64,000 nucleotides of DNA from an uncultured Modestobacter sp. GTDB lineage: Bacteria; Actinomycetota; Actinomycetes; Mycobacteriales; Geodermatophilaceae. The stretch lies in NCBI RefSeq assembly GCF_947486615.1, contig NZ_CANKUD010000001.1, forward strand, positions 62,001 through 126,000, written 5' to 3'. Positions 151 to 41,905 of this stretch are shown piece after piece; position 1 is the first letter of the stretch; each line of letters opens with the position of its first letter. Position numbers and translations under genes: made by a program. The notes beneath the pieces were generated by a model. It ran no database searches and was not told the DNA's origin. It saw nothing but the letters and a program-made list of their open reading frames with translations.

Positions 151-249
151 CCTTCCGATACCCGGGGGGAGTGACCAGTCGGGGTCATTTCTGACGCCCC
201 ATCCCCGTAGCAGCCTGCAGTGCGGTTCCGGTCAACTACGCTGGCGGAC

Positions 250-1578
250 ATGTCAGCGGAGGGGGTCCTGCGTCGCAGCAGTTACGGGCCGACCAGCCCC
301 ATGGTGGGCCAGCGGGGCGCCCGGACGCGCGAGCGGATCGTCAGCGAGGCGTTGACCCTGTTCGCTGCGCAGGGCTTCCACGGCACCTCGGTGCACGACA
401 TCTCGGCCGCTGCGGAGATCTCCCGTGCGACGTTCTACCAGTACTTCGAGAGCAAGGAGGAGATCTTCGTCCAGCTGCTCGACGAGTGCGGAGGAGCCCT
501 CGTCGACGTCGTCCGGCAGCTGGGGCCGCTGGGGCCGACCGCCGAGGGGTTCGGCAACCTGTACAGCTGGCTGCTGGCCTGGGGCCAGATCTACGACAAG
601 TACTCGACGATGTTCGTCCAGTGGGCCAATGTCGACTCCTCTGGCACGGCGATCCGCCCGCTGGTGACCGGGTTCGTCGAGTCCTTCGATGCCCGCGTCG
701 CCCGACGGCTCAAGCAGACCGACCTGGAGGGCCTGTCGGCGCCCGACGCGGCGGTGGTGCTCACCAGCGTGGTCAACCGCTTCAACTACCTGCGCCACGT
801 CACCAGTTCACCGACCACCGACCTGGAGGGACCGTCTCATCACCTGGCGGTGATCCTGCAGACTGTGCTGTTCCCGTCCACACCGGTCGAGGTCACCCGG
901 CGCGCCCTGGGCGGACAGCCTGACTGGTCCCGGCCGCGCGCGCCTTCGGCGGCCGCCGGCGCGGCGCCCGTGCCGGGTGACGTCCCCGACCGGTTCACGC
1001 CCCTCACCGCCCGCGGCGCGACCACGGTCCGCGAGCTGATGGACGCTGGTGGCCGGGTGTTCGCCGAGCGCGGCTACCAGCGGGCGAACGTCGACGACAT
1101 CGTCGGTGTCGCGGGCTTCGCCCGGGGGACCTTCTACAAGTACTTCGACGAGAAGCTGGATCTGCTCGTGGCGCTGTCCGACCAGTGCCGTGGCGAGGCC
1201 GTGCAGATCGCGCACACCTTCGAGGACGTCGAGCCCGGTGACGGCGAGGCGCTGCGGGCGTGGCTCACCGAGTACGTCGACTTCCACAGCCGATATGTCG
1301 GGGTCATCCGGGTCTGGCTCGAGCGCACGCCGAACCATCCTGCGCTGGACCGCGACCGGGTCCTGGTCCTGGAGGCCATGCGCCGTGCGCTCTACGCGCA
1401 CCTTGAGCGGGTGCCCCGCTCGCAGCCGCTGGACCTACGGGTAGCGGAGGTGTTCCAGGTCGCGCTGCTCGAGCGGCTCCCGGAGACCTACCGGCCGCGC
1501 GCCAAGCGGGGGCGCACGCCGCAGATGGTCGAGCTGATGGCACAGGTGCTCGAGCGCGGGCTGTTCACCCCGCGCTGA
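250..1578 (+). CDS. Transcriptional regulator with two tandem TetR DNA-binding domains
   Basis: The 442-residue protein contains two complete TetR N-terminal domains in one chain. The first HTH lies at about residues 24-70 (recognition helix ISRATFYQYF), the second at about 255-300 (GFARGTFYKYF). Each is followed by an all-helical ligand-binding-type segment. Ordinary TetR proteins are about 200 residues and act as dimers, so this is a covalent pseudo-dimer. The ATG at 250 is preferred over the upstream in-frame ATG at 220 because the paralogue at 24445 begins at the same place: both have LRRxSYG about 5-8 residues from the start. It converges on the flavin hydroxylase gene. It probably represses catabolic genes of this island in response to an acyl-CoA or aromatic ligand; that role is inference. 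Confidence 0.85.
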   Translation: MSAEGVLRRSSYGPTSPMVGQRGARTRERIVSEALTLFAAQGFHGTSVHDISAAAEISRATFYQYFESKEEIFVQLLDECGGALVDVVRQLGPLGPTAEGFGNLYSWLLAWGQIYDKYSTMFVQWANVDSSGTAIRPLVTGFVESFDARVARRLKQTDLEGLSAPDAAVVLTSVVNRFNYLRHVTSSPTTDLEGPSHHLAVILQTVLFPSTPVEVTRRALGGQPDWSRPRAPSAAAGAAPVPGDVPDRFTPLTARGATTVRELMDAGGRVFAERGYQRANVDDIVGVAGFARGTFYKYFDEKLDLLVALSDQCRGEAVQIAHTFEDVEPGDGEALRAWLTEYVDFHSRYVGVIRVWLERTPNHPALDRDRVLVLEAMRRALYAHLERVPRSQPLDLRVAEVFQVALLERLPETYRPRAKRGRTPQMVELMAQVLERGLFTPR

Positions 1579-5077: not shown

Positions 5078-5127
5078 CGGTGCCTCCGGAGAGCTGTAGT
5101 GGGCCGGGCGCAGCGTCCGAAACATTT

Positions 5128-5156
5128 CTGACGGAGCGTCCACCTGAGGATATATG
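5128..5156 (+). promoter_or_regulatory. Candidate SigA-type promoter for the 5195 gene
   Basis: A -35-like CTGACG (5128-5133) and a -10-like TATATG (5151-5156) are separated by exactly 17 bases, in one of the few AT-rich patches of the region. It lies between two divergent genes and points at the start at 5195. This is a visual match only. Confidence 0.4.
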
Positions 5157-7432: not shown

Positions 7433-8963
7433 TCAGCGGCGGGAGCGGTACTCCTCCTGCAACGCGCGCTTGTGCAGCTTCCCGGTCTCGCTGCGGGGCA
7501 GCTCCCGGGCGAAGTCGATCGAGCGCGGGCACTTGTAGGCGGCCAGCCGGCTCCGGCAGTGGGCGTCGAGCTCAGCGGCGAGGTCGGGGCCGGCCGTCGT
7601 CCAGTCGACCGGCTGGACGACGGCCTGGACCTGCTCGCCCATCTCCGGGTGCGGCACACCGAAGACAGCGGCGTCGAGCACGGCCGGGTGCTCGACGAGG
7701 AGGTTCTCGGCCTCCTGCGGATAGATGTTCACCCCGCCGAAGATGATCGTGAACGCCGTCCGGTCGGTGAGGTAGAGGTAGCCGTCCTCGTCCAGGTGAC
7801 CGACGTCGCCGACCGTGGCCCAGCCGCGGGCGTCGAAGGCCGCACTGGTCTTGGCCGGGTCGTGCAGGTAGCTGAAGGGCCGGCCGCCCTCGAACCAGAC
7901 CTGCCCCGTCGCACCGGTCGGGAGCTCCGCGCCGTCCGGGCCGACGATGTGCGGCACCCCGAGCATCGGGCGGCCGACCGACCCGGGGTGGGCCAGCCAC
8001 TCCGGCGTGGTGATGAACGTCGCGCCGATCAGCTCCGAGGAGCTGTAGAACTCCGAGAGGATCGGCCCCCACCAGTCGATCATGGCCCGCTTGATCTCCA
8101 TCGGGCACGGCGCCGCCGCGTGGACGACGGTGCGCAGGCTCGAGACGTCCCACCGCTCGCGCTGGGCGGCCGGCAGCTTGAGCATCCGCACGAACATCGT
8201 CGGCACCATCAGGCTGTGGGTCACCCGGTGCTGCTCGATGGCGCGCAGTGCCTGCTCGGGGTCGAACCGCTCCATGACCACCGAGGTGCCGCCCACCCGG
8301 TGGACAGCGCTGGACCAGACGATCGGTGCCGTGTGGTATAGCGGGGCGGGGGGAGAGGTAGACGTCGCCCTCGCCGAACCCGATCGCCCGGAGGAACGCG
8401 ATGGTGGGGTCCGACGCCAGCGAGATCGGCTGGGCGGTGAAGTCCCGCTTGATCCCCTTCGGCTGCCCGGTCGTCCCGCTGGAGTACTGCAGCAGGTCGC
8501 CCTCGCACTCGTCGTCGACCGGCGTGACCGGCCGGCTCGCCACCGCGTCGGCGTAGGAGTCCCAGCCCGGCAGGTCCGGGCCGATCATCAGGCGGGTGCT
8601 GACCCCGGGAGTCATGTCCGGTCCGAGGCTGCCGGCCAGCCCGGCCGTCGCCTCGCTCATCACCAGCACCTGGGCGCCGCTGTCGGCGAGCACGTACGCC
8701 GCCTCGGCCGGGGTGAGCGCCGGGTTCAGCGGAACGACGTAGAGCCCGGAGCGGCGGGTGCCCCAGTAGACCTCGTGGTACCGCGCGTTGTTCTCCATGC
8801 AGATCGCCACGACGTCGCCGGGCCGCAGCCCCAGGTCGCGGAACAGGTGCGCCGCCCGGTTGGACCGCTCGTCGAGCTGGCGGTACGTGACGACCTCTCC
8901 GCTGCCGGCCATGACGACGGCCGGGCGGTCGGGTGCGGAGCTGGCGAACGTCGCCGGGTACAT
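7433..8963 (-). pseudogene. Acyl-CoA synthetase interrupted by one extra base
   Basis: Two overlapping frames together make one complete AMP-forming acyl-CoA synthetase. The N-terminal half (from ATG 8963, GGAGGGG upstream) includes the P-loop LQYSSGTTGQPKGIKR. The C-terminal half (to the stop at 7433) includes EFYSSSELIGATF, the YLTDRTAFTIIFGGVNIYP hinge and the final ETGKLHKRAL with the catalytic lysine. The frames switch at the six-G run 8348-8353: with five Gs the protein reads straight through as 509 residues, a normal family length. All motifs are intact, so the mutation is recent, or it is a homopolymer sequencing error. The product would activate a carboxylic acid to its CoA thioester. 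Confidence 0.85.
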
Positions 8964-8989: not shown

Positions 8990-10207
8990 TCAGAGGATGA
9001 CGGAGGAGGTCTTCAGCTCGATGATCTCGTCGTAGTCCAGGCCCAGGTCCAGCAGCACCTCGTCGGTGTGCTGACCGTGGTCGGGCGCCCGGACCAGGTC
9101 CGGCGGCGTCTCGTCGAACTGCACCGGGTTGGCCACCAGGGAGTACTCGAAGCCCTCGTCGGTGGTCACCGGACGCACGTACCCGTTGGCGACGACCTGC
9201 TGGTCGGCCAGCACCTCAGCCGGTGTCTGCAGCACGGCCCAGACGCCCTTGGTCATCGTGAGGCGCTCGCGCCACTCGGCCAGCGGGCGGGCGGCGAAGG
9301 CCTTGCGGAGCTCCTCGATGCACTCGACGCGGTTCTGGAACCGCGCCCCGGCGGTGGCGAACCGCGGGTCGTCGAGGAAGTCGGAACGCTCGACGATCGC
9401 GGCTACGTCGGGCCAGAAGCGGTCGGCCTGCAGCATCATCAGCTGCAGCCAGCGCCCGTCGCTGGTCTGGTAGTAGTTCATCAGCGGGTTGGGCATGTCC
9501 TTGACGCTGAACCGGGTCAGCTTTTCCTCGCCCATCAGCGCCGTCGCGGTGATGTCCGGGGCGACGTTCCAGACGCCCAGGCCCATCAGCGACACGTCGA
9601 GCACCGAGCCCTCGCCGGTGCGCTCGCGCTTGAACAGCGCTGCGGAGATGCCCCCGGCCAGGGTCAGCCCCCCCATGATGTCGCCGAAGGCAGGCCGCTG
9701 GAACGGCGGGAACTCGGCGTCCGGGCCCTGCAGCATGGCGGCGATGCCGGCGCGGCTCCAGTACACCGCGGAGTCGAAGCCACCGGAGTTCGCCTCCGGT
9801 CCACGGACGCCGTAGCCGGTGCCCCGGGCGTAGACCAGGGAGGGGTTCACCGCCCGCACGTCCTCGACGGACAGCCGGAGGCGCTCCAGGCTCCCGGGCA
9901 GCAGGTTGGTGAGGAAGACGTCGGCGCCGGCGATGAGCCGCAGCAGCAGATCCCGGCCGGCCTCGCTGGCGACGTCCAGGCCGACGCTCTTCTTCCCGCG
10001 GTTGGGCTGCTCCATCATGAAGCTGACGCCACCGGGACCCGCCGTGCCGAGGGCGCCGACGTTCAGGCCCCGCTGCGGGTCGCCGGTCTCCGGGTGCTCG
10101 ATCTTGATGACCTCCGCACCCCAGTCGGCGAGCACCGCCCCGGCCGACGGGACGAACGTCCACCCCGCGAGTTCGACGACACGGACGCCCTGCATGACAT
10201 TGCTCAT
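8990..10207 (-). CDS. CaiB/BaiF-type (class III) CoA-transferase
   Basis: A 405-residue protein with the class III CoA-transferase layout: N-terminal GVRVVELAGWTFVPSAG, ADWGAEVIKIEHPETGDPQRG, then NRGKKSVGLDV and the NPSLVYARGTGYG region, where these enzymes carry a catalytic Asp nearby. It moves CoA between acids without ATP. A GAGGAG precedes the ATG at 10207. A close paralogue is at 30895-32109. It is upstream of the acyl-CoA synthetase on the same strand, and it is divergent from the small gene at 10451, with a palindromic element between. Confidence 0.9.
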   Translation of the reverse strand: MSNVMQGVRVVELAGWTFVPSAGAVLADWGAEVIKIEHPETGDPQRGLNVGALGTAGPGGVSFMMEQPNRGKKSVGLDVASEAGRDLLLRLIAGADVFLTNLLPGSLERLRLSVEDVRAVNPSLVYARGTGYGVRGPEANSGGFDSAVYWSRAGIAAMLQGPDAEFPPFQRPAFGDIMGGLTLAGGISAALFKRERTGEGSVLDVSLMGLGVWNVAPDITATALMGEEKLTRFSVKDMPNPLMNYYQTSDGRWLQLMMLQADRFWPDVAAIVERSDFLDDPRFATAGARFQNRVECIEELRKAFAARPLAEWRERLTMTKGVWAVLQTPAEVLADQQVVANGYVRPVTTDEGFEYSLVANPVQFDETPPDLVRAPDHGQHTDEVLLDLGLDYDEIIELKTSSVIL

Positions 10208-10325
10208 CTGTGCTCCTCAGCGTGCTTGGTCCGGCGTCGACGGGCACCGGAGGGCCGCGACTCGGTGTGACGGTAGCCACGTCGTCGGACACGGGTCAAC
10301 GGCTGGGTCCGCGATTTCTGGCACC

Positions 10326-10367
10326 GTGTACATGTCATCTGGCTCACTATCTGACATGCTGTGTACC
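10326..10367. promoter_or_regulatory. Imperfect palindrome with TGTACA and TGTCA arms in a divergent promoter region
   Basis: The left arm GTGTACATGTCA (10326-10337) faces a right arm at 10353-10366 whose complement is GTACACAGCATGTCA. The right-hand copy continues to TGTCAGAT (minus strand, 10349-10356). It sits between the CoA-transferase (start 10207) and the gene at 10451. The same elements occur at 13316-13333 and 29947-29964. It is probably an operator; the protein that binds it is unknown. Confidence 0.5.
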
Positions 10368-10450
10368 GGTGCAGCCTGGCTCAGCTTCCCGCTGCGTTTG
10401 CCAGCGGCTGCCGGCCGGACACCGATGACACCAGACGCTTGGAGGTCCCC

Positions 10451-10759
10451 ATGGAGTTGAAGCCCGGCACGCGCCTGCGCAGCCAGGTCGGCCCGACCGA
10501 GGTCGTGGTGGTGAAGTCGCCCGGTGGCGACCTCGCCCTGGCCTGCGGCGGCCAGCCGATGATCCCCGCCGGTGACGTGCCCGCCGAGGGGCTGACGGTC
10601 GCCGAGACGGCGTCGGACAGCACTCAGCTCGGCAAGCGCTACACCGACCCCGACGAGCGCGTCGAACTGCTGGTGACCAAGCCAGGGGTCGGCACGCTCG
10701 CCCTCGACGGGGTGGGGCTGGGCCTCAAGCAGGCCAAGCCCCTGCCCGCGAGCGACTGA
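10451..10759 (+). CDS. Small conserved-looking protein in an acyl-CoA synthetase operon, unknown function
   Basis: A 102-residue protein whose ATG follows GGAGG by five bases. The first half (KPGTRLRSQVGPTEVVVVK, then ALACGGQPM) looks like a small all-beta domain; there is one Cys only, so it is not a metal ribbon. I do not recognise the family. It ends 17 bases before the acyl-CoA synthetase start and is surely in the same operon, which suggests an accessory role in CoA-thioester formation. Confidence 0.65.
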   Translation: MELKPGTRLRSQVGPTEVVVVKSPGGDLALACGGQPMIPAGDVPAEGLTVAETASDSTQLGKRYTDPDERVELLVTKPGVGTLALDGVGLGLKQAKPLPASD

Positions 10760-10776
10760 GGCCCGGGACGACGAGC

Positions 10777-12276
10777 ATGGCCATCACCCTGCTGCTGGAC
10801 CTCGCGGAGTCCATGGACCCCGAGCGCCTCGCCGTCGGTCTGCGCCAGGAGGAGATCACCGCCCAGCGGCTCAGCGCGCTGACCACGGGCGGCGCCGCCC
10901 TGATCGCCGCCAGCGGCGCCCGGTCGGTGGCCTTCATCGGGGTCAACAGCCCCGCGTTCCCGGTGGCGATGTTCGCCGCCGCGCGCGCCGGGGTGCCGAT
11001 CGCCCCGCTGAACTACCGGTTGGCCGAGGGGGCGCTGCAGGAGCTCGTCGCCCGGCTGGACGCACCGCTGGTCGTCGTGGACGAGGCGTACCTGCCGGTC
11101 GTGTCCGGCTGTGGCGTCCCCGTGCTGGTCACCTCCGAGTTCATGGCCCGCTGTGCCACCGAGCCGGCCGTGGACCTGCCCGACGTCGACGACGCCGACC
11201 CGGCGGTGCTGCTGTTCACGAGTGGCACCACGGCAGCTCCGAAGTGCGTGGTCCTCCGGCACCAGAATTTGCAGTCCTACGTGCTGCAGACGGTCGAGCC
11301 GGGCAGCGCCGCAGAGGGTGACTCCGCGCTGGTCAGCGTGCCCACGTACCACGTCGCCGGCGTCGGCACCGTGCTGACGAACGTCTTCGCCGGCCGTCGG
11401 CTGCTCTACCTGCCCAACTTCACGCCTCGATCCTGGCTGGACCTGGTCCGCCAGGAGGAGGTCTCGTTCGCGATGCTGGTGCCCACGATGCTGGCCCGGA
11501 TCCTGGACGAGCTGGGCGGCGAGGTGCCCGACCTCCCGGCGTTGCGGACCCTGGCCTACGGCGGCGCGCGCATGCCGCAGCCGGTCCTGGAGCGGGCGTT
11601 GCGGGCCTTCCCCGCGGTGGACTTCGTCAACGCCTACGGATTGACCGAGACCAGCTCGACCATCGCCGTCCTCGGTCCAGAGGACCACCGGATCGCCTTC
11701 TCCAGCGACGACCCGGCCGTCCGCGCTCGGCTCGGCTCGGTGGGCCGGCTGATCCCGGGGATGGAGGGCCAGGTCCGCGACTTCGACCGGGTGGTCCCCG
11801 CCGGGGAGGAAGGCGAATTGTGGGTCCGCGGCGAGCAGGTGTCCGGCGAGTACGAGGGGCAGGGTTCCGTGCTGGACGAGGCGGGCTGGTTCCCCACCCG
11901 GGACCGGGCGCGGATGGACGAGGACGGCTACGTCTTCGTCCTCGGCCGCTCCGACGACGTGATCATCCGCGGCGGGGAGAACATCGCCCCGGCCGAGGTC
12001 GAGGACGTGCTGCTGCGGCACCCCGGCGTGGCCGAGGTCGCGGTCATCGGCCTGCCCGACGAGGAGTGGGGTGAGTGCCTGGCTGCCGTCGTCGTGCCGG
12101 CCACAGGTGCCGCCTGCGACGTCGAGGAGCTCCGGGAGTGGGTGCGCAGTCGGCTGCGCTCGGCCAAGACCCCGGACCGGATCGTCTTCCGCGGCGAGCT
12201 CCCGCACACCGACACGGGCAAGCTGCTGCGCCGGAAGCTCTACAGCGAGTTCACCACCGCACCGGCGGGGTCGTGA
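10777..12276 (+). CDS. AMP-forming acyl-CoA synthetase
   Basis: A 499-residue member of the ANL superfamily. The P-loop LLFTSGTTAAPKCVVLRH is at about residues 145-162, the YGLTETSS motif at about 287, the hinge RSDDVIIRGGENIAP near residue 395 and the terminal DTGKLLRRKL with the catalytic Lys near residue 483. It would make an acyl-adenylate and then the CoA thioester. It is somewhat short and has a compact N-terminal domain. Unlike the copy at 7433-8963 it is intact. The ribosome site is weak, so coupling to the preceding small gene is likely. Confidence 0.9.
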   Translation: MAITLLLDLAESMDPERLAVGLRQEEITAQRLSALTTGGAALIAASGARSVAFIGVNSPAFPVAMFAAARAGVPIAPLNYRLAEGALQELVARLDAPLVVVDEAYLPVVSGCGVPVLVTSEFMARCATEPAVDLPDVDDADPAVLLFTSGTTAAPKCVVLRHQNLQSYVLQTVEPGSAAEGDSALVSVPTYHVAGVGTVLTNVFAGRRLLYLPNFTPRSWLDLVRQEEVSFAMLVPTMLARILDELGGEVPDLPALRTLAYGGARMPQPVLERALRAFPAVDFVNAYGLTETSSTIAVLGPEDHRIAFSSDDPAVRARLGSVGRLIPGMEGQVRDFDRVVPAGEEGELWVRGEQVSGEYEGQGSVLDEAGWFPTRDRARMDEDGYVFVLGRSDDVIIRGGENIAPAEVEDVLLRHPGVAEVAVIGLPDEEWGECLAAVVVPATGAACDVEELREWVRSRLRSAKTPDRIVFRGELPHTDTGKLLRRKLYSEFTTAPAGS

Positions 12277-13140: not shown

Positions 13141-13315
13141 CGTGGTGTGCCTTCCTCGCGTACGGCCCCGGCGCCGAGCTGCCGGGGCGGCTGTCCGGCC
13201 CGGCGGAGAGGCTGCGGACCGGTGGTCCGCGACGCTCCCGGTCCGTGCCGGAACGGGTGGGTGGGGGTTGGCGTACAGCGGCCGGGACGGGCTACCGTGT
13301 CGCCAGTCCGCTGAT

Positions 13316-13333
13316 GTGTACACGATGTCAGAC
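13316..13333 (+). promoter_or_regulatory. TGTACAC-TGTCAGAC element
   Basis: GTGTACACGATGTCAGAC lies between the enoyl-CoA hydratase (start 13140, leftward) and the acyl-CoA dehydrogenase (start 13384, rightward), about 50 bases before the latter. It matches the element at 29947-29964 at 16 of 18 positions. Confidence 0.5.
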
Positions 13334-13383
13334 GGATGCCGTGGCCGCCGGCAGCGGCTGATCCGGACGGGATGGAGAGCCCA

Positions 13384-16899: not shown

Positions 16900-17592
16900 A
16901 TGGCGGCAACGGTGTTGGTCACCGGAGGCACGGGAGGACTGGGCCGGGCGGTCACCGCGCGGTTCCTGGACGCCGGGTGGCGGGTGGTCGTGCCCTGGAT
17001 CGCGCCGGGCGAACGGGATGCGATCGCCGCCCGGGACGGACTGGAGCTCGTAGAGGCCGACCTGTTCGACGGCGCCGGCGTCGCGATGGTGGTCGACCAG
17101 GCCGCCGCGGACCCGGACCGGCCCCTGCAGGCGGTGGTCAACCTGGTGGGCGGTTTCGCCGCCGGTGGAAAGGTGCACGAGACGCCGGTGGAGGAGTTCG
17201 AGGACCAGTTGCGGCTGAACCTGCGGGCCACCTACCTGGTCAGCCAGGCCGCCCTGCCGCACCTGGTGTCCGCCGGTGGCGGCGCGATCACCGCGGTGTC
17301 CAGCAGGGCCGCGCTGCGGCCGTTCGCCGGGGCGGCCGGCTACGTCACGAGCAAGCTCGCCGTGCTGGGTCTGGTCGACTCGCTGGCCGCCGAGTACCGG
17401 GACGACGGGGTGCGGGTCAACGCCGTCCTGCCCAGCGTCATCGACACCCCCGGCAACCGGGCCGGGCAGCCTGATGCGGACCACAGCCGCTGGGTCGCGC
17501 CCGAGCAGATCGCCGGCGTCGTGCTGTTCCTGTCCGGGCCGGACGCCACCGCCGTCAGTGGCGCGCACGTCCCCGTGTACGGCCGGGCCTGA
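16900..17592 (+). CDS. Short-chain dehydrogenase/reductase
   Basis: A 230-residue classical SDR. The cofactor motif is VTGGTGGLGRAV (residues about 7-18), the substrate-site serine is in AVSSRAAL and the catalytic Tyr-Lys pair is in GYVTSKLA. NLVGGF replaces the usual NNAG. It would oxidise a hydroxyacyl-CoA or alcohol in the same operon. GGGGAGGAG precedes the ATG. Two large hairpins follow the stop codon. Confidence 0.85.
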   Translation: MAATVLVTGGTGGLGRAVTARFLDAGWRVVVPWIAPGERDAIAARDGLELVEADLFDGAGVAMVVDQAAADPDRPLQAVVNLVGGFAAGGKVHETPVEEFEDQLRLNLRATYLVSQAALPHLVSAGGGAITAVSSRAALRPFAGAAGYVTSKLAVLGLVDSLAAEYRDDGVRVNAVLPSVIDTPGNRAGQPDADHSRWVAPEQIAGVVLFLSGPDATAVSGAHVPVYGRA

Positions 17593-17615
17593 AGCCTGCT
17601 CGACGTGGCTGGCAC

Positions 17616-17665
17616 GCCCAGGGCGGTGCCCTGGTCTGCGGTCGGACCGGAGCACCGCCCTGGGC
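17616..17665. terminator. 14-bp stem-loop between convergent genes
   Basis: Arms GCCCAGGGCGGTGC (17616-17629) and its exact complement (17652-17665) enclose a 22-base loop that can itself pair GGTC with GACC. It follows the SDR stop by 23 bases. Confidence 0.6.
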
Positions 17666-17689
17666 CTGCGGCGAACCGCCTTCGGCACG

Positions 17690-17726
17690 CCCATCGGTCC
17701 GGCCCGTCGAGCGACGGGCCGATGGG
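17690..17726. terminator. Second stem-loop between convergent genes
   Basis: GGCCCGTC and GACGGGCC pair around GAGC, extended by CCCATC with GATGGG across a small bulge. It lies 34 bases before the cupin stop codon and would serve the leftward gene. Confidence 0.5.
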
Positions 17727-17759
17727 TCCTGCTGACCGGCGGAGCTGCGCTGGGCCGCG

Positions 17760-18293
17760 TTAGAGGTTCACGGCTCCGGGGAACCGTTCGGGTGGGGCCT
17801 TGTCGCTCTCGTCCCCGTCCTGCTTCAAGATCGCCTGATCGGCGGCCCGCGCGAAGGGCGGCAACGGGTATGGAGGGACGCGTTCATTGACGGCCCCCTT
17901 CTCCGCCAGCAGCCGTGCGTGGTCCTCCGGGTCGCTGGCGAAGAAGCGACCCGGGCCGGTGAGGACGCAATAGAGCTCGGCGCCCTCCGAGCCGGCCTCG
18001 TAGGGCCCGAACATGTCACCCCACTCCAAGGTGATGTGCGTTCCGGCCGGGTACTTCTCGCCCTCCGGACCGATCAGCTCCCCCTTGACGACGAACACCG
18101 TGTGATCAGACTGGTGGCCGTGGTAGGGCGAGAAGGCGCGGGGCTCCCACTTGTTGTAGAAGGCCATGTACCGGGGAGTGAACTCGATCCACTTCTCCCA
18201 GATCGAGGCGACGTGTCCGTCGTCGAACCGGAGTCGGACTGCCTCGAACCAGGGAACGTCGTCGAGGTGCTTGATCACGGGGCCGCCGCGCAT
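17760..18293 (-). CDS. Cupin-domain protein
   Basis: A 177-residue single-cupin protein. The first cupin motif holds HGHQSDH (about residues 58-64), then FVVKGELIGPEGEKYPAGTH and a second block EWGDMFGPYEAGSEGAELY. The histidines fit a metal site, so a dioxygenase, isomerase or simple ligand-binding role is possible. The start at 18293 has GAGAGGA about 10 bases upstream; a GTG at 18278 is an alternative. It stands alone next to a long gap. The substrate is unknown. Confidence 0.7.
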   Translation of the reverse strand: MRGGPVIKHLDDVPWFEAVRLRFDDGHVASIWEKWIEFTPRYMAFYNKWEPRAFSPYHGHQSDHTVFVVKGELIGPEGEKYPAGTHITLEWGDMFGPYEAGSEGAELYCVLTGPGRFFASDPEDHARLLAEKGAVNERVPPYPLPPFARAADQAILKQDGDESDKAPPERFPGAVNL

Positions 18294-18789
18294 CCGTCAT
18301 GCATCCTCTCGAGGCCCCCAGCGACGCGTTGACGATGGCCGACGGCCGTTCCGCTCGGGAGGGCGATCGGGGCGGGACGGAAGTCAGCCCGGCCGAACAC
18401 CCCGTGGTGGTCCAGCTGCCATCCGCCGGGTGGCGGCCACGGTAGCGAGGGTCGACTGCGACTGCAATCACCCGGTGGACGTCCTGTCAGAAGCTTGGTC
18501 GACGGACGAGGCGAGTGAGCAGGCAAGGCCCGGTCCTCGGGGTGATCAACGCAGTCGACGCCATCGGCGCGCGGGTCGAGCGAGCCGACTAGGAGCTGGC
18601 GATATCTCGTTTCGACAACTGCGCTCCGGTCTTTACAAACGACCTTGTGATCCATCTAACATCTAGTGCATTATCTGACACCAGTGACACCTGGCGACGC
18701 CGGACCGCCGGCACGGGGGTCGAGATCGGCTCGTGGATCCGCCGCACCCGCAGCGGGGATCTCCCGCGACTGCAGACGACGAGGTAGGC
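18294..18789. other. Long intergenic region before the ABC transporter operon
   Basis: About 500 bases without a convincing gene. It includes an AT-richer part (about 18600-18680) with TTTACA and a TGTCAGATAATG element (minus strand, 18669-18680), and a TGTCAGAA at 18485-18492. A 25-codon ORF from GTG 18515 to TAG 18590, with GAGG upstream, reads VLGVINAVDAIGARVERAD at its end; it could be a small peptide or a remnant of a larger gene. Promoters of the cupin gene and of the transporter operon must lie here. Confidence 0.5.
18669..18680 (-). promoter_or_regulatory. TGTCAGATAATG element
   Basis: On the minus strand TGTCAGATAATG matches TGTCAGATAGTG at 10345-10356 in 11 of 12 positions. It lies 110 bases before the leader ORF of the ABC transporter operon. 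Confidence 0.4.
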
Positions 18790-18855
18790 ATGAGACGTCA
18801 GACTTCGCCCCGGGCTCGTAGCGTGGGCACGCGCTCCGCCAGGGGCGTCAAGTGA
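18790..18855 (+). CDS. 21-codon leader ORF coupled to the ABC permease
   Basis: The ATG at 18790 follows the strong site GAGGTAGG, and the 21 codons end at a TGA (18853-18855) that overlaps the GTG start of the permease by GTGA. The peptide is basic, beginning MRRQTSPRARS, with six Arg and one Lys. The permease start itself has only a poor ribosome site, so its translation probably depends on this ORF. It may be only a coupling device or an attenuating leader; neither is proven. Confidence 0.45.
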   Translation: MRRQTSPRARSVGTRSARGVK

Positions 18856-28983: not shown

Positions 28984-29844
28984 TCAAGCCGAGGTGGCGA
29001 CCGCCATGCCGGTGATCCACTCCCGGACGGGCTCGTAGACCAGGCGGTGCAGTGGCCGACCACCGCCGGCGGCTCCCGCGGCCAGCCAGGTGCGGACCTC
29101 GTTGGCGCCGGCGCCGGCGCGCTGTCGGGCGCTGTCGGTCAGCGATGCCAGGGCGGCCGCGTCCCAGGACTCCAGGGCCGTCAGGAAGGCCTCGTCCCAC
29201 TCCGGCCGGATCAGGTCGCGGGCAGCCTCGGAACCTGCGGCGATGAGCGCGGCGCGGTCCTCGTCGTTGATGTAGTAGTCGTCGATCTCCAGGCTGGGCG
29301 GGGAGTGCGACAGCCCACCGGTGCCGATGACGAGCACCCGGTCGTCGCGGCCGTCCAGGAACTGCCCGACAGCGGTGCCCAGGGCCAGGACCCGGTCGGC
29401 AGTGGGCAGCGGAGGCATCGCGCAGTTGACCGACACCGGCAGCACCGGACGCTCGTCCAGGCCGCCCAGCAGGTCGCGCAACGGCAGACCGAAGGCGTGG
29501 TCGAGGCCGACGTCGCGGCACACCGCGATGTCTATCCCGGAGGCCAGCAGATGCTCGCTGAGCCCCTGGGCGGTCTCCTTCGGAACGTTGAGCTGACCGC
29601 CCTCATGGGGGCCCTCGTCGATGACCTCCGCCGAGAGGGAGACCGAGAAGGTGGGGACGACGTGCCGGAAGGCGCGACGGTGGTCGCCGCCGAAGAGGAC
29701 GACGTAGTCGGGGTCGAACTCCTCGACCAGTGCACGGGCCTCGGCCAGACCCTTGCGGAACATGGGGCCCTCGACGTGCTCGGGGTCCCGCTCCTTGCCC
29801 GGGCTGTGGCTCGCGCAGACCACCAGCCGCTGTCGATCGGTCAT
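28984..29844 (-). CDS. Class III extradiol ring-cleavage dioxygenase (LigB/MhpB-like)
   Basis: A 286-residue protein with the layout of MhpB (2,3-dihydroxyphenylpropionate 1,2-dioxygenase): CASHSPG at the start, VVLFGGDHRRAF (metal-site His near residue 55), VGLDHAFGLPLRDLLGGL (acid-base His near 115) and RVLVIGTGGLSHSPP (near 180). These enzymes use Fe(II) and O2 to open a catechol ring at the meta position. GGGAGAG precedes the ATG at 29844. It complements the MhpA-like hydroxylase at 1619-3256. A TGTACAC/TGTCAGAT element lies 100 bases upstream of its start. Confidence 0.85.
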   Translation of the reverse strand: MTDRQRLVVCASHSPGKERDPEHVEGPMFRKGLAEARALVEEFDPDYVVLFGGDHRRAFRHVVPTFSVSLSAEVIDEGPHEGGQLNVPKETAQGLSEHLLASGIDIAVCRDVGLDHAFGLPLRDLLGGLDERPVLPVSVNCAMPPLPTADRVLALGTAVGQFLDGRDDRVLVIGTGGLSHSPPSLEIDDYYINDEDRAALIAAGSEAARDLIRPEWDEAFLTALESWDAAALASLTDSARQRAGAGANEVRTWLAAGAAGGGRPLHRLVYEPVREWITGMAVATSA

Positions 29845-29946: not shown

Positions 29947-29964
29947 GTGTACACGCTGTCAGAT
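29947..29964 (+). promoter_or_regulatory. TGTACAC-TGTCAGAT element
   Basis: GTGTACACGCTGTCAGAT lies in the 145-base gap between the GntR gene and the dioxygenase gene. The core CGTGTACACG is itself a perfect 10-base palindrome. Confidence 0.5.
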
Positions 29965-29989: not shown

Positions 29990-30775
29990 TCAGGGGAGCA
30001 GGTTCAGCACCGAGGTGGGGCCGTCGGCCTCGAGCAGGTAGGCGCTGCCCGCACTGAGGTGGCGCCGCCAGAGGTCCTCGGCCTTCGCGGCGTCACGCGC
30101 GGCGATGTGGTCGACGAGCAGCCGGTGGCTCTTCATGGTCAGCCGGTAGGCGCGGTCGTGCGAGTCCGTGCCCTGATCGGCGACGACCCGGGTCCGGTTG
30201 GCCGGGTGCACGATGTCGGCCAGCATCGCGTTGAGCAGGGCGAGGGTGTCGTTGCCGGCCAGTTGCACGACGAGGTCGTGGAAGGCGCTGTGCGCCTCGA
30301 CCCGGGTGGCCGGGTCGTCGGCCGCGCCGTGGTCGGCCAGCGCCTCCTCGAGCTTTGCCAGGTCGGCCTTGGTGCGCCGGCGCGCCAGCATCGCGGCGGT
30401 CGGCGGCTCCAGGACCAGCCGGGCCTCCCAGACATCGCGCAGCGTCGTCCCGCGGTGCTGCAGGACCATGCCCGCGTAGCGGGCGGCCACCTCGAGGCTG
30501 GGCGCCCGGACGCGGCCGCCGCCGCCGGCACCGCGCCGGACCTCGATCAGCGACTCGGACTCCAGCACCCGGAAGGCCTCCCGCAGCGTGGGGCGGGACA
30601 CTCCGAACTGCTGCATGAGGGCGGGCTCGGACGGCAGTGCGTCGCCCTCGGAGAGCTCGCCCTTGATGATCCGGCCGCGCAGGTCCGAGGCCACGAGTTC
30701 GGCCATCTTCGGCACCCGCACCGGTTGCCCCACTGCACCGGAGACGTTGCGCAGAGGTCGTCCGTTCTGCGGCAC
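29990..30775 (-). CDS. GntR-family regulator, FadR/FCD type
   Basis: A 261-residue protein. The winged HTH lies at about residues 24-90 (GDALPSEPALMQQFGVSRPT, then LREAFRVLESESLIEVRRG). The C-terminal all-helical FCD domain has its metal-type residues in HSAFHDLVVQLAGN and later HRLLVDHI. FCD regulators usually respond to small organic acids. The GTG start has GGAGG 7 bases upstream. A paralogue lies at 41114-41905 (same KMAELVA opening). A TGTCAGAC element lies 59 bases upstream of its own start, which suggests autoregulation. Confidence 0.88.
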   Translation of the reverse strand: MPQNGRPLRNVSGAVGQPVRVPKMAELVASDLRGRIIKGELSEGDALPSEPALMQQFGVSRPTLREAFRVLESESLIEVRRGAGGGGRVRAPSLEVAARYAGMVLQHRGTTLRDVWEARLVLEPPTAAMLARRRTKADLAKLEEALADHGAADDPATRVEAHSAFHDLVVQLAGNDTLALLNAMLADIVHPANRTRVVADQGTDSHDRAYRLTMKSHRLLVDHIAARDAAKAEDLWRRHLSAGSAYLLEADGPTSVLNLLP

Positions 30776-41113: not shown

Positions 41114-41905
41114 ATGTCCGCTGCGGAGCCAGCCGCCTTCCCCCGCAGTACGCCGACACCGATCGGCCACGAGCTGCGGGTGCCAAAGATGGCCGAGCTG
41201 GTCGCGGCCCGCCTCCGTGGTCAGATCATCCGGGGCGAACTGGCTGAGGGTGAGTCCCTACCCCCGGAGGCCGCCCTGCTGGCGCAGTTCGGCGTCTCCC
41301 GGCCCACCCTGCGCGAGGCCTTCCGCGTGCTCGAGGCCGAGTCCCTGATCATCGTGCGGCGGGGCGCCCGCGGCGGCGCCCGCGTCCAGTTGCCCAGCGC
41401 CGAGGTGGCGGCGCGCTACGCCGGGCTGATCCTCCAGCACCGGGGCACGACCCTGGCGGACGTCTACCTCGCCCGGATCGTCATCGAGCCGCAGGCCGTC
41501 GGGCTGCTGGCCCGGCGACGTTCCGACGACGACGTTCGGGAACTCCGGGAGGCGCTGGCTGTCGGTGCGGAGCCGGGTGAGACCCGGCTGCAGACGTTGG
41601 CACGGCACGAACAGTTCCACACGCTGCTCGTCGCCCTGACCGGCAACCAGACACTGCCCCTGCTCATGGGGATGATCGAGCACATCTTCACCCTGGGGAA
41701 CTGGTCGGTGGTTCAGTCCGACCCCAATTCTCCCGACCTCGCGGCCGCCAGCCGCCGCGGGTTGCGCGCCCACCGCGAGGTCGTCGACCTGATCGAGGTC
41801 GGGGACGACGTCGCCGCCGAGAAGCTCTGGCGACGGCACCTGACCGCAGCACAGGAGTACCTGGTGCACGGGAACGCTACGACGGTCCTGGATCTGCTCG
41901 GTTGA
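41114..41905 (+). CDS. GntR-family regulator, FadR/FCD type, second copy
   Basis: A 263-residue paralogue of the regulator at 29990-30775. Both share VPKMAELVA, GVSRPTLREAFRVLE, RRGAxGG and the VAARYAGxxLQHRGTTL linker. The FCD residues are in RHEQFHTLLVALTGN and AHREVVDL. GAGGAG precedes the ATG. It begins a run of three rightward genes (regulator and two SDR-like proteins) upstream of the importer. Confidence 0.88.
   Translation: MSAAEPAAFPRSTPTPIGHELRVPKMAELVAARLRGQIIRGELAEGESLPPEAALLAQFGVSRPTLREAFRVLEAESLIIVRRGARGGARVQLPSAEVAARYAGLILQHRGTTLADVYLARIVIEPQAVGLLARRRSDDDVRELREALAVGAEPGETRLQTLARHEQFHTLLVALTGNQTLPLLMGMIEHIFTLGNWSVVQSDPNSPDLAAASRRGLRAHREVVDLIEVGDDVAAEKLWRRHLTAAQEYLVHGNATTVLDLLG

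Follow-up and report, generated by a model that had tools for sequence, protein, structure and literature searches.

Double TetR-family regulators (TFRs) are a known kind of protein, and their type example is Mce3R (Rv1963c) of Mycobacterium tuberculosis, whose structure (PDB 9b7y) is presented by its authors as the first of a double TFR (PMC11667970). According to that description, whose authors could not name the ligand, the Mce3R chain forms an asymmetric Omega with two different helix-turn-helix motifs (HTHs) and one shared ligand domain, and it recognizes a nonpalindromic operator. The promoter studied there contains two sites, each site being 25 bp long; Mce3R is autoregulated and controls genes of cholesterol and lipid metabolism (PMC11667970). 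The same paper cites a prediction of 204 actinobacterial double TFRs, and it was the only one that our literature search found to treat double TFRs as such; the text of PMC3511530 treats Mce3R in one sentence.

The regulator analysed here, P0001, is encoded at 250-1578 (+) of the window, by which we mean the whole stretch of 64,000 nucleotides under study, and is one chain of 442 amino acids. The surrounding open frame spans 220-1578 (+), and the ATG at 250 is the start chosen in most orthologues (three start a few residues earlier). The original prediction had read the chain as two TetR domains that differ in sequence, with a full-length paralogue in the same window, and all of this holds. 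P0001 contains two Pfam TetR_N stretches (E 1.4e-27), both far above the cut-off of 24 bits (Table 1), and its N- and C-halves share 30% identity over 105 amino acids (E 7e-15), being related yet different. Among 41 TetR_N matches genome-wide, P0001 and the paralogue P0002 are the only open frames with two, and they are 42% identical along their full length (439 aligned positions). The ligand domains of P0001 are weak by sequence (PF17918, E 0.007, below the cut-off) and rest on the structure model.

Table 1 Features in the window; operators and sites are candidates predicted from sequence.
Feature	Position	Strand	Details
First TetR_N / HTH of P0001	337..474 (C1:62337-62474)	+	59.4 bits; recognition segment SRATFYQYF
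Linker joining the P0001 halves	901..984 (residues about 218-245)	+	Low model confidence, pLDDT <50 at 221-243
Second TetR_N / HTH of P0001	1036..1176 (C1:63036-63176)	+	47.0 bits; recognition segment ARGTFYKYF
P0002, double TetR-family regulator, 434 aa	24445..25749	+	Two TetR_N stretches, E 3.6e-30
Catabolic genes adjoining P0001	1619..17592		MhpA-type hydroxylase (above cut-off), amidohydrolase, luciferase-like, isochorismatase-type, AMP-ligases, CoA transferase, acyl-CoA dehydrogenases, enoyl-CoA hydratase, SDR
Candidate operator before P0001	185..210 (site at 189)	+	Left arm TTCTGAC, also kept in L017; right arm degenerate and lacking GTC
Candidate operator, amidohydrolase (-) / 96-aa gene (+)	5126..5140	+	Strict pattern
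Weaker candidate site (ATCTGACA..TGTAC), CoA transferase (-) / 10451 gene (+)	10350..10366	+	Relaxed pattern; degenerate right arm
Candidate GTACAC-class site, enoyl-CoA hydratase (-) / acyl-CoA dehydrogenase (+)	13316..13332	-	Same sequence in G002 C51
Candidate operator upstream of ABC-transporter genes leading to P0002	18478..18492	-	Strict pattern
Candidate GTACAC-class site upstream of LigB-type ring-opening dioxygenase gene 28984-29844 (-)	29947..29963	-	Same sequence in G002

The hosts of this set of proteins are soil or plant-associated. Searching 59 related genomes including the own one, with at most 29 candidates scored per genome, we obtained matches at 1e-10 in 13 and full-length double TFRs only in the own genome (G000; two), in the congener G002 (one) and in G053 (two, 26-27% identical). 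P0001 is thus present in one of 22 congeners, five of which are <90% complete; the orthologue in G002 is 85-86% identical and lies on a contig of 44,331 bases. A scan of genome contigs for close relatives returned 48 loci, of which 15 carry full-length orthologues (the one in L029 being cut near its end by the contig): eight from Frankia and Parafrankia, four from Streptosporangiaceae/Actinoallomurus metagenome-assembled genomes (MAGs), and one each from a Modestobacter, a Frankiales and an Actinomycetes MAG. In a set of 396 genomes from the phylum, 16 gave matches with E values of 1e-25 or lower, many of which covered just one half; the full-length matches at E 7e-139 or better are in G000, G426 and G144, and G448 and G357 have more distant full-length double TFRs. 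In the Parafrankia-type proteins (L026, L028, L030 and L031), long Gly/Ala/Pro-rich inserts occur in the N-half and the linker.

Our preferred reading, with a probability of about 0.72, is that P0001 is a single-chain double-TFR repressor that acts on an asymmetric operator of a catabolic island and is released by a ligand; its fold, binding, repression and inducer class are modelled or drawn by analogy with Mce3R. The two non-identical fused halves would fold onto each other as one pseudo-dimer, so that one chain would carry two different HTHs. P0001 would bind TTCTGAC-N5/6-GTC in promoters of a large island of aromatic/alkyl-CoA catabolic genes and before its own gene, would switch the island off, and would be released once an intermediate of the pathway, probably an acyl-CoA or an acid, occupies the pocket formed between its halves.

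The catabolic genes that adjoin P0001 in the window include several without a Pfam match, and a LigB-type dioxygenase is encoded further along. A large part of the likely regulon lies upstream of the window, and its products include P450, beta-oxidation and ring-cleavage enzymes. The segment L098 (C1:45000-62300) encodes acyl-CoA dehydrogenases, thiolases, a CoA ligase, SDRs, an enoyl-CoA hydratase and a P450, together with an NDMA-dependent alcohol dehydrogenase, an aldehyde dehydrogenase, an F420-type LLM enzyme, an APH-type protein, a ChsH2-like protein and two MaoC-like proteins, and then P0001. Still further upstream are a Rieske dioxygenase, a glyoxalase/dioxygenase-family protein, HpaH (above cut-off), an HpaI-like protein (below cut-off) and a flavin monooxygenase. 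Such a gene set suggests that an alkylated aromatic compound, or a similar substrate, undergoes side-chain oxidation and ring cleavage. Many L098 genes accompany the P0001 orthologue in the Modestobacter, Streptosporangiaceae-type and Frankiales loci, and some of them do so in the Frankia loci; the four Parafrankia-type loci have little common neighbourhood beyond a 102-aa gene and an AMP-ligase.

That 102-aa protein (window 10451-10759), which has no Pfam match, is kept at 47-58% identity in six P0001-orthologue loci besides L017, and its gene adjoins AMP-ligase genes in four of those six. One AMP-ligase gene of the window appears to lie in two frames on the minus strand (7433-8296 and 7572-8963), whereas L017 has the gene in a single frame of 509 aa (17280-18809) that shows about 91% identity in its C-terminal part; the split at 7433-8963 (-) appears to be a frameshift or sequencing error.

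The island promoters carry a conserved, non-random motif, which we first spotted by eye in cluster promoters of different genera, in the same, mutually related loci that enter the counts below. It defines a candidate operator that is new here, TTCTGAC-N5/6-GTC, often continuing as GTCAC; judged by title, none of the papers listed in a literature search is a bacterial operator study. The own genome (4.7 Mb) contains ten matches, eight of them within the 73 kb around the gene (C1:7426-80492), and the reversed control contains none. G002 has seven, four of which are on the contig carrying the P0001 orthologue, and the other 21 congeners have 1-6 each (mean 3.4). With dinucleotide shuffling, 0.07 matches were expected in L098 against three found (0 of 200 shuffles reach three), and 0.17 in the window against two found (1 of 100 reaches two). 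Over the own 126 kb and the 15 orthologue loci, all 22 matches (8 in the own region, the other 14 spread over 8 of the orthologue loci) are intergenic, although one of the own sites (C1:15374-15389) shares a few bases with a called gene at that gene's end; intergenic DNA makes up 14.5% of these bases by our own gene caller. In the same regions, 300 permuted patterns gave a mean of 0.39 and a maximum of 7, against 22 for the motif.

A two-arm profile trained on 20 distinct sites from other genera only recovered the pattern in the own 126 kb, where its 13 best matches (12 places, two matches being one place read on both strands) were all intergenic at an intergenic share of 11.6%; they scored from 23.0 to 13.7, and the reversed-sequence control reached 15.0 once and then 10.6. 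In two further genera that were not used for motif discovery (G144 and G426), sites lie beside homologous catabolic genes and adjoin the double TFRs of these genomes on three contigs; in the stretches fetched, every one of the 11 strict matches falls between genes, and 38 of the 46 genes called there have a match in the own 126 kb. The stricter spacer-6 form matches in 37 of the 396 genomes. Its counts are three in G144, three in G426 and two in G000, which are the three genomes with a double TFR at E 7e-139 or better; among the other 393, none has three and three have two (one of these being a single place on both strands). G448 and G357, with their distant double TFRs, have no spacer-6 match.

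Within the window, the gaps 90-249, 10208-10450 and 13141-13383, which the original prediction had proposed for DNA-binding assays, each hold a TCTGAC-core candidate site, at 189(+), 10350(+) and 13332(-). In L105, two sites lie between homologues of the genes that border the site at 5126, the amidohydrolase (78%) and the 96-aa gene (52%). Among the findings that count against the preferred reading are these: the site before P0001 is without the GTC arm, and 7 of the 15 orthologue loci (L021, L022, L025, L026, L028, L030 and L031) are without a strict match. Each of these seven has a looser [C/T]TCTGAC at or before the regulator start, and five have more elsewhere.

Given that the catabolic genes co-occur with P0001, another regulator of the cluster could bind the motif and the targets of P0001 could lie elsewhere, which we consider rather unlikely. 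Candidates would be P0002, which is encoded in the same island and has a first HTH segment (SRATLYQYF) nearly equal to that of P0001, one of two GntR/FCD regulators (29990-30721 and 41189-41905), for which about 52% identical genes occur in L023 and L027, or a regulator that we did not see; both double TFRs are also present in L029. However, the sites persist in genomes that have a P0001 orthologue but where nothing closer to P0002 turned up (for example G486 and G494, both draft assemblies), and all eight Frankia and Parafrankia loci have a looser form of the motif at the start codon of the P0001 orthologue. Over the 396 genomes, motif co-occurrence tracks the close double TFR, though the gene cluster tracks it too.

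The two paralogues might also form a half-site-sharing pair, in which nearly identical first HTHs would read a common TTCTGAC arm and the second HTHs would read GTCAC and GTACAC, respectively. If this were true, two single-chain repressors would divide the promoters of one island between two signals; we view it as a distinctly unlikely arrangement. The own genome contains two matches to a second site class, TCTGAC-N4/6-GTAYAC. Both lie within the window and their sequences recur in G002; 4 of the other 21 congeners have one match each. Assignment of this class to P0002 is not supported, because the class is likewise present in G486, G494, G489 and G487, genomes in which no P0002 homologue closer than the P0001 orthologue was found. 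In L029, a Frankiales MAG, a P0002-like (49%) and a P0001-like double TetR gene flank one catabolic cluster (L029:2218-3564 and 9974-11272).

Returning to P0001 as a single-chain repressor, the AlphaFold2 model of the monomer (16 aligned sequences; pLDDT 81.6, pTM 0.78) is unsure in the linker (221-243) and the first 18 residues. Each half has a TetR fold, and the whole chain matches Mce3R 9b7y, with a Foldseek E of 1e-7 over 440 columns and a Z of 24.2 (358 aligned, rmsd 4.2 A, residues 18-442; next Z 13.6). The P0002 model (pLDDT 83.7, pTM 0.81) matches 9b7y at Z 25.1 (next 13.9). For both models the next-best matches are single TetRs (Z <14), and among the 50 structural matches listed there is no other double-TetR chain besides Mce3R. 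For P0001 the model predicts an Omega fold built from one chain, with two HTHs and a common core bundle, and we infer its pocket and DNA contacts from the model and from Mce3R. The earlier idea of a built-in dimer gains support by analogy, because the models match Mce3R over almost the whole chain. That of two ligands is not supported, as the halves of Mce3R build one shared ligand domain, though its authors say that the cavity could hold two (PMC11667970).

The halves could instead pair across two chains, N with N and C with C, giving two classical symmetric TetR dimers on two palindromes. Cross-chain pairing is among the two assemblies that the authors of the Mce3R study drew as possible, and in their hands the M1 half of Mce3R, when isolated, eluted as two higher-order species (PMC11667970). 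Against this, the single-chain model of P0001 aligns along 358 residues with the Omega fold that one Mce3R chain forms, and none of 29 sites is a perfect palindrome: 14 continue as GTCAC, two as GTCAG and none as GTCAGAA, the perfect palindrome of the left arm. Looseness of the right arm arises partly by construction, because the search fixed the left arm, which does not apply to the absence of palindromes. The inner core TGAC..GTCA is palindrome-like, so that an ordinary homodimer remains compatible from the DNA alone. On balance we find cross-chain pairing quite improbable, and the candidate operator agrees with the earlier suggestion that the protein reads asymmetric DNA. It is very improbable that only one HTH is functional, with the second half decayed or purely regulatory: the C-half recognition segment differs from that of the N-half and the right operator arm is looser than the left, but the second TetR_N reaches 47 bits where 24 is the cut-off, and ARGTFYKYF is kept in five of six other P1 rows (one change in the sixth) and in D_L066.

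We placed the halves in a tree of 56 rows, 42 of them halves and 14 single TetRs. Leaving Mce3R aside, the N-halves of the other 17 double TFRs group together at 91/96, below the firm-support mark of the tool, as a single ancestral fusion would lead one to expect. The C-halves of these 17 are interspersed with single TetRs in an unresolved part of the tree, and the halves of four Mce3R orthologues are placed apart on long branches. By sequence, the P0001 family thus seems to form a line separate from that of Mce3R, although the tree supports this less than firmly, and a single origin of the two stays conceivable. Neither a simple assignment of the P0001 family to the Mce3R family, given this placement, nor an internal duplication of one TetR, given the mixing of the C-halves, is supported.

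P0001 is a well-supported member of the known double-TFR kind, and the predicted operator and regulon make it testable. It would provide a second double-TFR set with a short, strongly predicted operator and many sites in one island, in which one could study how a fused pair of unequal TetRs reads lopsided DNA and which intermediate releases it.

P0001 differs from Mce3R in several respects. The two are 15-16% identical in structural alignments; a profile comparison with nine Mce3R orthologues, a piece of one of which matches 9b7y at 2.9e-45, is collinear across both halves at 20% identity. The sites of Mce3R are 25 bp long, whereas the core of the P0001 family is 15-16 bp, and this core occurs near one of the nine Mce3R loci (about 3.2 kb each). 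An mce (yrbE) operon neighbourhood of the Mce3R type was not found, as PF02405 (MlaE/YrbE permease) matches nothing in the own genome, though it does match in 4 of 14 control genomes. Ordinary TetRs such as EthR, FadR and FasR have the fold seen in each P0001 half but are homodimers of one short chain, typically on palindromes (for typical TFRs, PMC11667970). Other actinobacterial double TFRs have the same domain order as P0001, with N-halves more alike than C-halves (PMC11667970, its reference 10). With Mce3R, P0001 shares a one-chain double-TFR architecture with two non-identical HTHs and a whole-chain structural match, and the paired promoter sites of Mce3R have a predicted parallel in L018 and L019, where two strict sites share a promoter; a nonpalindromic operator, autoregulation and control of catabolic genes are the further Mce3R-like traits predicted for P0001.
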